Below, one piece after another: positions 42,443 to 49,253 of a stretch of DNA of 64,000 nucleotides. The notes beneath the pieces were generated by a model. The model was not told the origin of the DNA, made no database searches, and was given only the letters and a program-made list of their open reading frames with translations. The stretch is taken from positions 9,982,001-10,046,000 of the forward strand of contig NZ_CP092431.1 of assembly GCF_022385335.1 (NCBI RefSeq). Reading direction: 5' to 3'. Positions within the stretch are counted from its first letter, which is position 1, and each line of letters opens with the position of its first letter. The translations under genes and the position numbers were made by a program. The DNA comes from Streptomyces deccanensis (GTDB taxonomy: Bacteria; Actinomycetota; Actinomycetes; Streptomycetales; Streptomycetaceae).

Positions 42443-43096
42443 TGCGTACCCTAGGTCAGGCATGCGGACGCGTCCAGACACGGGCGACCCTTCTCGCACG
42501 ACCGCCGTCGTACGCCCCGCACGGGGGACGAGCGCGCGGACCGCCTGTCGCCGAACTCGGTTGTGCCGCGCGGCACTTACCCGATCGCGCGTGGTCGGCG
42601 CGCGGCAGCTCGGGTCCGCATGGAAGGCGACGGCGGGCGGACCGGCGTACACCTCGGCGCGCAGGCGGGCCCCTGACGGGGCAGCCGGCCGGCTTGCTGT
42701 CCATGCCGAGACCTGCGGCCAGTTGACCGGCGGCGAGGAGCGATCTGCCTCAACGGACCCGTCTGTTCCCGCTGTTCAGACCACGGCGAGGTAGGGGATC
42801 GGGGACGATGATGCGATGAATGGCGACATCGGAGGTGCCGGCCCGGGCCCTGCGGAGAGTCCGAAGCGGCCGTGGCAGCGACAGCGACAGCGGCCGCTGA
42901 AGCGGGTGTGCGCGGGGTGGCCGGTGCTGCTGCGGACGGCTTCGGCTTCGGATTTGCGGAGCCGCAGTTCGCGCCCACTCCAGTCGCCACCTCGCCCACC
43001 CATCGGCCCTCGGTCTTCCGGCAGAAACGCCACTCTGTCGATCCGTCACTCCCTGTCGGCCTGTTCCAGGCCGCCCCTCAGCGCAAGGAAGTACGC
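42443..43096. other. 654-bp divergent intergenic region
   Basis: Between the GH115 promoter region and the kinase start no frame looks coding; arginine-rich shadows dominate. A CAGCGA triplet-pair repeat lies near 42870-42895. It presumably contains the kinase promoter. Confidence 0.5.
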
Positions 43097-45115
43097 GTGA
43101 GCGCAATCGGCTCCGGCGCAAGAGTCCAACCGGCGCGTCCCGGCGATCCCTCCCGTATAGGCCCCTACCGCATCGTCGGACGTCTCGGCGCGGGCGGCAT
43201 GGGCACAGTCCACGCCGGAGTCACCTCGGACGGAACACGCGTGGCGGTCAAGGTGATCCATCCCGAGCAGGCGCAGGAACCGGAGTTCAGGGCCCGTTTC
43301 ACACGTGAGGTGGCACTGTCCTCCCGTGTCACGGGCCCGTATCTGATTCCGTTGCTCGCCGCCGACACCGATGCGGCGACCCCGTGGCTGGCCACCGCCT
43401 ACGTCCCCGGTCCGACCCTGGACCAGCATGTGCGCGAGCGTGGGCCGCTCGCCGAAGGAAGCTCGCACGCTTTCGCGGCGGCCACCGCGCAGGCCCTGGC
43501 CGCGATCCATGCCGCAGGCGTGGTGCACCGCGATGTGAAACCTCAGAACGTCATTCTGACGCCCGCCGGCCCCCGCATTCTGGACTTCGGTATCGCGCAC
43601 ACCTTCGACGGCACCAGTGTCACCCGTACCGGCGTCATGACCGGGACACCGGGCTGGATCAGCCCCGAGCAGTACCGGCAGGGCTCCGCGGGCCCGGCGG
43701 GCGACATGTTCGCGTGGGGAGCGCTCGTGGCCTACGCGGCGACCGGAAGACTGCCCTTCGGCGCCGGCACACCCGACGTGGTCGCCTTCCGCGTGATGTC
43801 GGAGGAACCGGACCTGGACGGCGTAGCCCCGTCCCTGCGCGGGATCCTGGAGAAGGCGCTGGCGAAGGAACCGGGGGATCGCCCCACGGCCGCCGAAGTG
43901 GCCCAGCTGTGCGGGGCGTTGCTGGCCTCGGAGGCCACACAGATCGTGGGCGTCCACGCGCTGCCGACCCAGGCCGGTGACATGGTCGCCCAACTCTGGA
44001 ATGTGCCGGCCGGAGACGACCCGGCATGGCAGGCGCCGCCGGGCCGGTCGGCGAAGCGCCGGGCGGTCGCCGTGCTCGTGGCGGCGGCGGCGATCGGCGG
44101 CCTGGTCGGCGGAGTGACGGCTCTGATGCCCGACACCACCGCCGACAGGAAGCGCGAGGCATCGACTTCATCCTCGGCCCCCGCCGGGCCTGGCCCGCGG
44201 GCCGAGAACACCGACGAGGAGGGCACGGCGGCGGAGCGGGGCACAACCGTGAGCGACGGCGCGGCGAGCGCCGTGAGCTGGGCGGAAGCCCGTACGGCCC
44301 GGGGGCAGGCCGAACACGACGTGGCCCGGTCCGTCCTGCATGACCAGAGCGTTCTGTCCGGGGAGATGAGCGACGTCCGGCTCTCTCCGGGGAGCGTGAC
44401 GTTCCATGAGGCACGCCGGGAGGTCTACTTCTCGTACAGCCTGGACACCGACACCGACACCGACGCCCACGGAACGCTGATCGCGGAGACGGAGATCGCC
44501 AGAGCGATGTGTCTCGCGTTGCGCGATTCGGTCCTCAACGGCCACCCGGATCTGCCGTATCGCAGCTACGTCACGGTGCGCGAGGAGGCGGGCCGCGACC
44601 CGCAGGTGACATGGCAGGAGGACTTCGTCGCCGACGAAGAGTGTAGCTCGGCAGCCGAGGACGGCCCAGCGCAGAGCCACGACACCGATGCGGAGCCGGA
44701 GCCGGATTGGGAGCCGGACGAGAACGGCCTCGGGGCGGCGATGGTTCCCAGCACCGACGGCGACGAGATCCGTGTCGCGGACCGTGCCGCCAAGAAGGTC
44801 ATCGAGCGGAGCAACGAGATGCGCCCGACGCTCGGCACCGGTCAGGTCCTCGGCCACGACGAGATCAAGGTGGGCTTCGACCCTGCGAACTCGGCCATGT
44901 ACGTGTGGTCGGACTACCTGATGTGGAACCAGGGGCAGGTCGAGACCTGGGCCGACATGGCCGCGGGGGAGGCGTGCCGTGCCCTGGTGACAGAGCGGCA
45001 GAACGCGGGCTCTGGCTGGCCGTACACGCGCTACGCCGTGGCCGAGATCGGCGGGACGGGCTATCTCATGATCCGTTGGGGCACGGCCACGACGCTCGCC
45101 GAGTGTCCCACCTGA
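43097..45115 (+). CDS. membrane Ser/Thr protein kinase (Hanks type)
   Basis: 672 residues. Cytoplasmic kinase domain 24-275: P-loop GRLGAGGMGTVHAG, ATP lysine K52 in VAVKVI, catalytic VVHRDVKPQN (D146), magnesium DFG (163-165), and activation segment TGTPGWISPEQYRQG. One transmembrane helix at about 322-345 follows, then an acidic, low-complexity stretch and an extracytoplasmic domain of about 250 residues with cysteines but no PASTA repeats. The GTG at 43097 has AAGGAA six bases upstream. The sensor domain contains a (TD)n run. Downstream lies the MerR-clamp gene on the same strand, 130 bases away, but with its own promoter. Confidence 0.9.
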   Translation: MSAIGSGARVQPARPGDPSRIGPYRIVGRLGAGGMGTVHAGVTSDGTRVAVKVIHPEQAQEPEFRARFTREVALSSRVTGPYLIPLLAADTDAATPWLATAYVPGPTLDQHVRERGPLAEGSSHAFAAATAQALAAIHAAGVVHRDVKPQNVILTPAGPRILDFGIAHTFDGTSVTRTGVMTGTPGWISPEQYRQGSAGPAGDMFAWGALVAYAATGRLPFGAGTPDVVAFRVMSEEPDLDGVAPSLRGILEKALAKEPGDRPTAAEVAQLCGALLASEATQIVGVHALPTQAGDMVAQLWNVPAGDDPAWQAPPGRSAKRRAVAVLVAAAAIGGLVGGVTALMPDTTADRKREASTSSSAPAGPGPRAENTDEEGTAAERGTTVSDGAASAVSWAEARTARGQAEHDVARSVLHDQSVLSGEMSDVRLSPGSVTFHEARREVYFSYSLDTDTDTDAHGTLIAETEIARAMCLALRDSVLNGHPDLPYRSYVTVREEAGRDPQVTWQEDFVADEECSSAAEDGPAQSHDTDAEPEPDWEPDENGLGAAMVPSTDGDEIRVADRAAKKVIERSNEMRPTLGTGQVLGHDEIKVGFDPANSAMYVWSDYLMWNQGQVETWADMAAGEACRALVTERQNAGSGWPYTRYAVAEIGGTGYLMIRWGTATTLAECPT

Positions 45116-45185
45116 TCGAGAAAGGCCGACTGTCCCGCGTGATCGAGAAAGACCGGCCGTCGCGCCTGATCGAAAAAGGGGGAGG
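45113..45185 (+). repeat. 27-bp tandem repeats starting at the kinase stop
   Basis: TGATCGAGAAAG begins units at 45113 and 45140, and TGATCGAAAAAG at 45167, giving an exact 27-base period. The TGA of the first unit is the kinase stop codon. The third unit breaks down after twelve bases into a G-rich run. Confidence 0.85.
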
Positions 45186-45195
45186 GGGGCCCAGG

Positions 45196-45226
45196 TTGAC
45201 CCTCGACATGGTCGAGGCACCAGAGT
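45196..45226 (+). promoter_or_regulatory. MerR-type promoter with dyad in a 19-bp spacer
   Basis: TTGACC at 45196-45201 is a good -35; CAGAGT at 45221-45226 is a possible -10, 19 bases away. The spacer begins with the perfect dyad CCTCGAC, three bases, GTCGAGG (45201-45217). Elongated 19-base spacers covered by a dyad are the hallmark of promoters switched by MerR proteins, and the gene that follows encodes one. Confidence 0.6.
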
Positions 45227-45245
45227 CCTGGGTGTGGAGAGCGAG

Positions 45246-46337
45246 ATGCACAGCATTGGAGAGATGGCCCGGGACAGCGGGCTCGGGGTGAGCGCCCTGA
45301 GGTTCTACGACCGTGCCGGAGTGCTGGTTCCGGCCTGGGTGGACCCGGTGAGCGGTTATCGCTGGTACGAACCCGAGCAGCTCGAAGAGGCCCGGCTGCT
45401 GGCCCGGTTGCGTCGGGCGGGCATGCCGCTGGCCGACATCCGGCTCGTCCTGGCCGGCTGGGGCGGCGCGGACATGGAACTGGTGCGCGGACTTCTTCAG
45501 GCGCACCTGCGCCGTCTCGAACTGGGGCTGTCCGATGCCCGCAGTGAGTTCTCCACGCTCCGAGCCCTACTCGATCACAGGGAGACAGCCCCCATGACCT
45601 CGCTTCACACCGCCACGGCCACCGCCCGGTTCTCCGTGCCCGCGCCGGAGTTGGCCGCCGCGCTGGACGCGGTCCGGTTCGCCGCCGGTACCGACGCGGA
45701 GCTGCCGATGCTCGGCGGGATCCTGTTCGACATCGAGGGCGAACTGCTGCGTCTCGTGGCCACCGATCGCTACCGCATGGCGGTCGCGGGGGCACGTACG
45801 ACCGGGCACGGCGAGCGTCGAACGCAGGTGGTCGTGCCTCTTCCCCTCGCCGACGCGATGCGGGCCCTGCTGACCGGCGATGAGCCCGCCGAGTTCATCG
45901 TGGACGGTGACCGCGTGACGCTCGAGACCGGGGACCGGCAGGTGGCCGGGCAGAACCTCGGTGGCGAGTTCCCCGACTACCGTCGCCTCGTCCACCTTCC
46001 AGCCGGACGACGGGCCCGCGTCGAGACGGCGGCCTTCCGCCAGGCCCTGGAGACCGGCCCGGTCCGCGCGAGCGAAACGCGTGAGCAGGACGGTGAGCCG
46101 TACGACCTGAGCGTGCTCCGGGTGGCGGAGGACGGGACCGTGATCGTCTGCGACGACGGTGACGACGACCAGGACAACGTGGCCGTCAACCGTGAGTTCC
46201 TGCTGCACGCGCTGACCGCCGGAGCCCGGCACGAACTGATCCTGGAGGTGGGCGCGCCCACGGCACCGCTCGCGATCCGCCGCCCCGACGACGAGGACGC
46301 CTTCTCGCTTCTGATGCCGATCCGATTGGAGGGCTAG
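45246..46337 (+). CDS. MerR regulator fused to a DNA sliding-clamp-like domain
   Basis: 363 residues from the ATG at 45246, which has GGAGAG four bases upstream; an in-frame GTG lies 12 bases earlier. Residues 1-70 are a MerR winged helix (HSIGEMARDSGLGVSALRFY, then GVLVPAWVDPVSGYRWYEPE). A coiled coil of about 40 residues follows. Residues 125-363 resemble the last two domains of DNA polymerase III beta subunit: LPMLGGILFDIEGELLRLVA, then TDRYRMAVA and QNLGGEFPDYRRL. NREFLLHALTAG and a C-terminal LLMPIRLEG, close to the MPxRL end of true clamps, complete the match. The promoter dyad suggests autoregulation. What ligand or partner the clamp-like part recognises is unknown. Confidence 0.82.
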   Translation: MHSIGEMARDSGLGVSALRFYDRAGVLVPAWVDPVSGYRWYEPEQLEEARLLARLRRAGMPLADIRLVLAGWGGADMELVRGLLQAHLRRLELGLSDARSEFSTLRALLDHRETAPMTSLHTATATARFSVPAPELAAALDAVRFAAGTDAELPMLGGILFDIEGELLRLVATDRYRMAVAGARTTGHGERRTQVVVPLPLADAMRALLTGDEPAEFIVDGDRVTLETGDRQVAGQNLGGEFPDYRRLVHLPAGRRARVETAAFRQALETGPVRASETREQDGEPYDLSVLRVAEDGTVIVCDDGDDDQDNVAVNREFLLHALTAGARHELILEVGAPTAPLAIRRPDDEDAFSLLMPIRLEG

Positions 46338-48293: not shown

Positions 48294-49253
48294 CTAAGGG
48301 CCGGCCACCGCTGCCGTGAACCGTGTCACGAGCGCCGCGACCGCCGCACGCAGTTCTTCGCCGCCCTCGACCCGGAACGCGAACGGCAGCCTCGCGAGCC
48401 ATTCCTGCGCGTACATGTCCGGGTTGCGCGTGCTGCCCACCAGCACGCACCCGTTCCCCAAGGGTTCGAGCCGTCCCATGGGCGGCCGGATCCAGGGGAC
48501 CACCTCGGTCAGCGGGAGGTCGAACACCACCCGCGTGGAGAACTCCCATCCGAGGCCCAGGTTCTCCTCCAACACCGCCACCGGATCGAGACCTTCCGGC
48601 GGTTCGAACCCGTGCCCCGTCCTCCGGACGGCGTGGACCCGGTCGACCCGGTACGTGCGTATCGCGTCCGCGCGGTGGGAGTGGCACAGCAGGTACCAGC
48701 GCCCGTAACGGACGACGAGGGACCAGGGATCGACCTCCGCCTCCCACTCGTCGCCCGCCCCGCTGCGGTACGTGACCGACACACGTTCCCGGGCGGCGAC
48801 GGCGTCGACGAGCGCGCCGGTGACAGCCGGATCCGGGCGGGCCGAGTACGGGTCCGGTGCGGCCGACGCGTACTCCCGCAGCATCGCCGCGTGGTGGCCG
48901 ACGCTCTCCGGCAGAGCCTTGACGACCTTGCCCAGGGCGGTGCTGACCAGGTCGTCGGCGTCGGCCGCACCCAGCTGGCCGCTGAGTACGGCCATCACCA
49001 GGCCGAGGGCCTCCGCCTGCGTGAAGTGCACTGGGGGCAACCTCGTCCCGCGCCCCAGCCGGTAGCCGCCGTGCGGCCCCCGTGTCGACTCCACTGGGAT
49101 GTCGGCCTCCCGGAGTATCCCGACGTAGCGGCGCGCGGCCCGCTCCGTGACGCCCAGCCGTTCGGCGAGTTCACCGGCTGTCGTAACGGGCCGGGTCTGG
49201 ATGATCTCCAGAGCGCGCAGGGCTCGCGCGGTGGGGCTGAGATCGTTCGGCAC
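48294..49253 (-). CDS. WYL-domain transcriptional regulator (YafY-type)
   Basis: 319 residues. N-terminal HTH_11 (ALRALEIIQTRPVTTAGELA, ERLGVTERAARRYVGILREA), then the WYL domain with RVSVTYRSGAGDEWEAEVDP, WSLVVRYGRWYLLCHS and RTYRVDRVHAV, and the WCX C-terminal extension. WYL regulators often sense nucleic acids or small ligands and control a divergent gene. Here the alpha/beta hydrolase 254 bases away is the probable target. The gap carries a heptamer repeat. Confidence 0.9.
   Translation of the reverse strand: MPNDLSPTARALRALEIIQTRPVTTAGELAERLGVTERAARRYVGILREADIPVESTRGPHGGYRLGRGTRLPPVHFTQAEALGLVMAVLSGQLGAADADDLVSTALGKVVKALPESVGHHAAMLREYASAAPDPYSARPDPAVTGALVDAVAARERVSVTYRSGAGDEWEAEVDPWSLVVRYGRWYLLCHSHRADAIRTYRVDRVHAVRRTGHGFEPPEGLDPVAVLEENLGLGWEFSTRVVFDLPLTEVVPWIRPPMGRLEPLGNGCVLVGSTRNPDMYAQEWLARLPFAFRVEGGEELRAAVAALVTRFTAAVAGP

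Follow-up and report, generated by a model that had tools for sequence, protein, structure and literature searches.

In the window analysed here, a stretch of 64,000 nucleotides from the genome of Streptomyces deccanensis, we found a gene in which a MerR-type DNA-binding domain is fused to domains II and III of a sliding clamp. We propose that this may be a self-induced gene of the TipA type, which would sense and sequester a ligand, and in which the binding part would be the pocket-bearing two thirds of the clamp; we regard this proposal as evenly balanced. It is based on four observations: the fusion together with its predicted fold, a single operator that lies before the gene itself, a conserved internal ribosome-binding site (RBS) and start codon, and the preserved residues of the clamp pocket.

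For the working of the system we infer the following course, by analogy with known regulators. Firstly, the long product, which comprises the MerR part and clamp domains II-III, would sit on its own promoter with a 19-bp spacer. Secondly, once a ligand occupied its clamp pocket, the long form would switch this promoter on, as is the case with MerR activators. Thirdly, the mRNA would be translated from two starts, yielding more of the long sensor and, starting from Met117, a free clamp-pocket protein of 247 amino acids (aa), which would bind the ligand away from the essential DnaN. Candidate ligands are peptide antibiotics directed at the clamp, griselimycin and mycoplanecin among them, and clamp-binding peptides. 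In the former case, this one gene would be enough for a defence against clamp-directed natural products, with a decoy of the antibiotic's target serving as both sensor and sponge and the internal start flooding the cell with free clamp-pocket protein, a possibility that we put forward tentatively and hold with less than even belief. The features on which the analysis is based are the following (positions are those of the window).

42872-45115, co-directional, just upstream of the fusion gene: Ser/Thr protein kinase gene (PF00069, 1.5e-38)
45196-45226, + strand: MerR-type promoter/operator (-35 TTGACC at 45196-45201; 19-bp spacer; -10 CAGAGT at 45221-45226)
45236-45248, + strand: primary RBS and start (GGAG, 6 nt, ATG at 45246)
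45246-45455, + strand: MerR winged-helix DNA-binding domain, residues 1-70 (Pfam MerR_1; AlphaFold2 helices 4-11, 15-23, 43-57 and 62-74)
45474-45587, + strand: long MerR-type helix, residues 77-114 (AlphaFold2 helix 77-114)
Residues 115-124: disordered linker (AlphaFold2 pLDDT <50)
45579-45596, + strand: internal RBS and start (AGGGAG at 45579-45584, 9 nt, ATG at 45594-45596, Met117), in the disordered linker
45594-46337, + strand: predicted short product of 247 aa, clamp-like and without the DNA-binding part, inferred from the internal start
45618-45989, + strand: clamp domain II-like region, residues 125-248, limits approximate (TIGR00663, VIA-align)
45993-46328, + strand: clamp domain III-like region, residues 250-361, limits approximate, with the MPIRL end (TIGR00663, VIA-align; Pfam match below threshold)

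Domain layout and clamp fold

The open reading frame was confirmed at 45246-46337 on the + strand, with an ATG start and a length of 363 aa; an in-frame GTG at 45234, 12 nt 5' of this ATG, would give a form of 367 aa. An earlier note on this DNA had assigned residues 1-70 to a MerR winged helix, and this assignment was borne out by a Pfam match to MerR_1 (E=2.3e-12, residues 3-70 from the ATG) and by a score of 47.3 bits for PF13411 (MerR), which is above the curated cut-off of 21.6. By analogy with the MerR family, the long helix at residues 77-114 is expected to be a coiled coil for dimerisation.

The same note had likened the C-terminal 240 or so residues to the last two domains of DnaN, and both the profile matches and the modelled fold agree with this. 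Thus, Pfam reported DNA_pol3_beta_2 (E=8.2e-18) and, below its cut-off, DNA_pol3_beta_3 (E=0.021) on the fusion protein; the NCBIfam profile TIGR00663 (dnaN) matched residues 124-365 of the 367-aa form, which are residues 120-361 from the ATG, with E=4.8e-29 and a score of 101.4 bits, short of the equivalog cut-off of 137.65; and the top match in a sequence search of the PDB was the clamp 7rzm (E=3.5e-17). The profile search returned DnaN and no unrelated ligand-binding family. AlphaFold2 gave the processivity-clamp fold (domains II and III) for residues 123-361, and VIA-align, which re-ranks Foldseek's own matches, aligned these residues with residues 122-366 of E. coli DnaN, covering domains II-III only. 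NREFLLHAL falls on a helix (316-326) and MPIRL forms a conserved C-terminal end, both as the note had it, whereas TDRYRM, which had been read as one strand, lies across the turn between strands 167-173 and 177-184.

A protein search scored 7999 candidates, of which 2743 were homologues at E<=1e-3; Streptomyces avermitilis is among the species listed. Since all 120 listed of these 2743 matches carry both MerR PF13411 and clamp PF02767, the fusion is, by comparison of related sequences, not an artefact of the S. deccanensis assembly. The fusion itself is already visible to annotators, because such proteins are covered by database names: those among the matches listed are "MerR family transcriptional regulator" and "DNA polymerase III subunit beta family protein". 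In the open-licence PMC literature, no MerR-clamp fusion was evident from the titles and abstract openings listed; in PMC6344877, the MerR and clamp terms concern separate genes.

The three-domain make-up of DnaN is not found here, as the MerR part replaces domain I in this 363-aa protein. Six clamp domains make up a ring, and the two-domain subunits of PCNA form trimers. It could thus be imagined that the two-domain short form is a working alternative clamp, assembled into a PCNA-like trimeric ring on DNA, and the domain folds are indeed predicted to be intact. However, we consider this highly improbable, because domain I is absent and because, by hand alignment, Ile272 and Leu273, which form an interface pair in E. 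coli DnaN, correspond to Pro272-Val273 in the fusion protein. In canonical DnaN, domain I makes up half of the dimer interface (PMC11139829). The short form has a negative net charge (mean -13, 64 sequences), and domains II-III of the host DnaN are likewise negative (22 K/R, 35 D/E), so that charge does not discriminate between the two.

The operator and the internal start

MerR promoters have a dyad operator in an overlong spacer of 19 bp. Upstream of the fusion gene, TTGACC and CAGAGT are 19 bp apart, with the dyad CCTCGAC-ATG-GTCGAGG at 45201-45217 in the spacer, an arrangement that we take to be the shape of a MerR-activated promoter; a dyad operator in a 19-bp spacer is present at 78 of the 79 genes of the close family. 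When up to 3 mismatches in its 25 specified bases were allowed, the full pattern had one site in the 10.1-Mb genome of S. deccanensis. A slightly degenerate pattern (<=1 mismatch), run against 295 genomes of the genus, matched in 78 of them with one site in each, and the reversed-pattern control at the same stringency had none in the 295 genomes. All 78 operator sites are at the 5' end of a close-family gene and on the same strand, exactly 19 nt before the start in 69 cases; at <=1 mismatch, the 295 genomes contained no operator before any other gene, nor any in a genome without a close-family gene. The odd distance in G061 (-406) concerns a decayed copy; what is left of its first codons ends 19 nt away from the operator. 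G290 holds the lone gene of the 79 without an operator at <=1 mismatch. In 53 of 55 distinct upstream regions of the close family (identity >60%), TTGACC or TTGACA stands 19 bp before a hexamer, which is CAGAGT in 36, CAGGGT in 12 and a near-variant in 5, and the hexamer ends 19 nt before the start in 49 of the 55.

Because the 78 operators occur one per genome and always at the fusion gene, the regulator appears, in terms of strong sites, to have its own gene as sole target. It would then be a MerR regulator that, across 78 sampled species, has apparently one strong target, namely itself. Weak further targets may exist: with a looser pattern of 19 specified bases, at up to 3 mismatches, the S. 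deccanensis genome had 39 matches versus 9 for the reversed control, with one exact match (the fusion gene itself), none at 1 mismatch and three at 2.

For the analysis of the start codons, 82 homologous genes were extracted; the 74 of 340-400 aa were aligned, and 8 were dropped for their length (L027, L057, L059, L071, L074, L097, L098 and L099). The close-family set, with an identity >60%, consisted of 56 rows, 51 of them distinct. The primary start, GGAG-N6-ATG, is found in 50 of these 51 relatives, and the internal GGAG with its start codon in all 51, with a spacing of 6 nt (42) or 9 nt (9) and with ATG (50) or GTG (1) as the start codon. The linker is otherwise variable, and an indel separates the two spacings. 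Such a conserved start signal should, in addition to the long product, yield the clamp part alone. The codon usage around it points in the same direction. Arg112 is encoded by AGG in 44 of 50 relatives and by CGG in 6, and AGG elsewhere in the same genes makes up 56 of 1995 Arg codons (Fisher P 6e-56, a nominal value since the sequences are related), while the lone relative with Gln112 uses CAG; GGAG is intact in all 51 because the change of Arg112 to Gln (CAG) and that of AGG to CGG both preserve it. The five columns of the gene with the strongest conservation of rare codons (108, 112, 97, 106 and 119) all lie around the internal start. Among relatives at 41-50% identity, the internal start is present in 4 of 6 (ATG in three and GTG in one, with GGAG), and in a distant group (29-35% identity) an internal ATG is found in 0 of 12 and a GTG in 1 of 12.

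It might be argued that the gene encodes a regulator with a single product, in which the clamp-derived domain is the ligand pocket and the internal start is not used. MerR regulators carry varied, unrelated ligand domains, and BmrR, TipAS and AlbA have been contrasted in this respect (PMC6078987). Moreover, pairs of GGAG and ATG or GTG within a gene also arise by chance: GGAG precedes 127 of 971 in-frame ATG/GTG codons, of which 51 are the internal site and the other 76, out of 920, are at scattered positions. We nevertheless think it quite unlikely that there is one product only, given the preference for AGG at Arg112, the invariance of GGAG within a variable linker, and the retention of the start as GTG in one relative.

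As to RNA structure, the accessibility of the internal start is not raised (0.35 vs 0.42 for synonymous shuffles), and the region around it folds more weakly than the shuffles do (-18.2 vs -25.8 kcal/mol). A conserved RNA structure at the internal start was considered and discarded, as RNAalifold gave energies no stronger there than for the gene's 5' end. Three candidates for genes split at the domain boundary (G046, G074 and G156) proved to be full-length genes with long linkers. The rare codons GAT97, CGA106 and CTA108 (45534-45602), conserved 5' of the internal start, are not explained by the RBS, and no consensus -10 of an internal promoter was seen by eye near these codons.

TipA (TipAL/TipAS of Streptomyces lividans; class SkgA) resembles the fusion in having a MerR head, a linking helix, a C-terminal binding domain and its own promoter. 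Two alternative start codons are reported for it (PMC7762955; PMC6078987), and its second in-frame start yields a domain-only product, whereas in the fusion gene the start signal is conserved and the product is predicted. TipA has been described as an autoregulated minimal system for drug resistance, in which the drug is sequestered by the short product (PMC7762955). TipAL reportedly activates multiple genes (PMC7762955), whereas one strong operator was found for the fusion regulator. As a positive control, we collected 30 TipAS-domain loci from 31 genomes, 25 of which were parsed: in all 15 loci of the FEVF type, an ATG preceded by GGAG is located where the long helix ends, and the other 10 have varied, looser signals. 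The binding domain of TipA is TipAS (PF07739) and that of the fusion protein is a sliding-clamp fold, on which Pfam found no PF07739 match at E<=1. AlbA (AlbAL/AlbAS of Klebsiella oxytoca) is also a MerR-like regulator with a drug-trapping C-terminal domain, and its authors assume that a short form is made as well; it differs from the fusion in that, as described in the excerpts of PMC6078987, albicidin is trapped by two tandem TipAS-like domains, with no clamp fold. DnaN, on the other hand, shares the fold and the pocket of domains II-III, and differs in that the fusion has a DNA-binding regulator in place of domain I. Hence, the fusion protein is not TipA, because it lacks a PF07739 match, and it is not DnaN, because it has two domains and falls below the equivalog cut-off; it is, in terms of our proposal, a protein that works like TipA with a piece of DnaN.

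The clamp pocket and its candidate ligands

The pocket residues are those listed for E. coli DnaN in PMC11139829, mapped by hand via the alignment with the PDB hit; of these residues, Val344 was placed with the least certainty. Fifteen of the 18 residues are identical to those of the host DnaN, versus 60 of 219 elsewhere in residues 125-361 (nominal P 4e-6); overall, 75 of 237 positions are identical. Both subsites of the pocket that receives clamp-binding motifs are kept, and the pocket columns have an information content of 3.81 bits versus 3.03 for the rest (64-sequence alignment; permutation P 5e-5, which is the floor of the test). In the 12 proteins of the distant group, most of subsite I and the Met-Pro pair are kept, but subsite II lacks Asn320 and Tyr323. 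Judged by its residues, then, the fusion protein has preserved the region of the clamp to which ligands and drugs attach, and it has no domain I, which the canonical ring requires. In DnaN, both subsites of the pocket are filled by griselimycins and mycoplanecins (PMC10817943); every known partner docks its clamp-binding motif in this pocket, where single-stranded DNA (ssDNA) has also been seen (PMC11139829).

Three functions had been floated in the earlier note: reading the state of replication, binding clamp-interacting peptides, and serving as a ligand pocket. Because both subsites were retained while the rest of the domain diverged, the evidence favours the pocket as a site for a ligand or peptide, and does not tell drug from peptide; its conservation is as compatible with any clamp-binding peptide or protein as it is with a drug. 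GriR and MypR, the second DnaN copies of griselimycin and mycoplanecin producers, are like the fusion in being extra clamp-type proteins tied to clamp-directed antibiotics; they differ in that they are described as DnaN genes near or in the producer's cluster, with a proposed role in self-resistance, and the excerpts of PMC10817943 mention no MerR part.

The main rival to the TipA-like proposal is an endogenous signal, in the form of free clamp-binding proteins or peptides at stalled forks. The pocket would then read the clamp-binding motifs of the cell's own polymerase and repair proteins, or ssDNA under replication stress, and the short product would compete for clamp partners, like beta* of E. 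coli. The latter is a UV-inducible product of an internal start, consisting of DnaN domains II-III. A sensor of this kind is consistent with the retention of both subsites and with the binding of partner motifs and ssDNA to the pocket (PMC11139829). Furthermore, clustering of the neighbouring genes placed a dnaB helicase gene upstream in 7 of the 20 distant-group stretches (3 of the 7 confirmed by Pfam; the 20 include two closer-group ones, L127 and L128, the distant ones being L109-L126). On the other hand, no gene other than the fusion gene is preceded by the operator, and the patchy distribution (79 of 295 genomes), together with some decayed copies, is more in keeping with an accessory defence than with a core sensor of replication. 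We therefore consider such a sensor rather unlikely, and the competition for clamp partners by its short product equally so.

If the TipA-like proposal is true, the fold of a replication protein has been taken over to do the sensing and sequestering in a circuit of the TipA type. The gene would then offer a ready reporter for antibiotics that bind the clamp, which as a class are of interest against tuberculosis, and a route to unknown clamp inhibitors in soil bacteria, as well as a resistance principle to bear in mind.

Distribution and neighbourhood

The genome of S. deccanensis has one copy of the fusion gene, about 73 kb from the end of the contig, and its sole other PF02767 gene is the true DnaN. 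Matches at E<=1e-20 are present in 114 of 295 genomes of the genus and in 31 of 394 genomes of the class (11 of 137 genera); the genus is taken to be Streptomyces, to which the nearest proteins and the named loci belong. The close family, mostly at 50-100% identity and with decayed copies counted, occurs in 79 of the 295. If the defence reading is true, this presence in about a quarter of the genus genomes would suggest that clamp-directed soil antibiotics are far commoner than the few that are known. Decayed copies, with frameshifts, stops and a deletion, are found in G250 (L106), G061 (L107) and G043 (L108), and these three genomes still keep the operator. The existence of decayed copies with the operator still present suggests that the fusion gene is dispensable. 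A search of viral contigs for close relatives found no homologue.

The distant group, at about 30-40% identity, has the same MerR and clamp make-up (Pfam on three of its proteins), and its operator differs, being TTGACCTTC in 12 of 12 genes examined. Just downstream, a protein of 158-316 aa is encoded in 9 of the 20 distant-group stretches mentioned above; one such protein has a weak, sub-threshold TPR match and another has none.

In 26 stretches (the window and 25 relatives), no neighbouring gene recurs in more than 5, as far as gene calls with a crude GC-position filter go, which missed genes, including the fusion gene itself in 7 of the 26. The commonest neighbour is the Ser/Thr kinase upstream, present in 5 of 26 (the window, L076, L077, L081 and L099). 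Since a homologue is upstream in only 4 of the 25 relatives, the kinase is probably not a partner. Of the other clusters of neighbours, one occurs in 4 stretches and several in 3, mostly in the same few relatives. The lack of a recurrent neighbour fits a one-gene system.

Two minor observations concern the surroundings of the gene. Three copies of a 27-bp tandem repeat (45098-45179) cover the end of the kinase gene and the spacer before the operator, and one relative (L019 and L076, which are identical in sequence) has, by eye, a single copy of this repeat. Further downstream, at 48294-49253 on the minus strand, the window encodes a WYL-domain regulator (PF13280, 3.6e-19).
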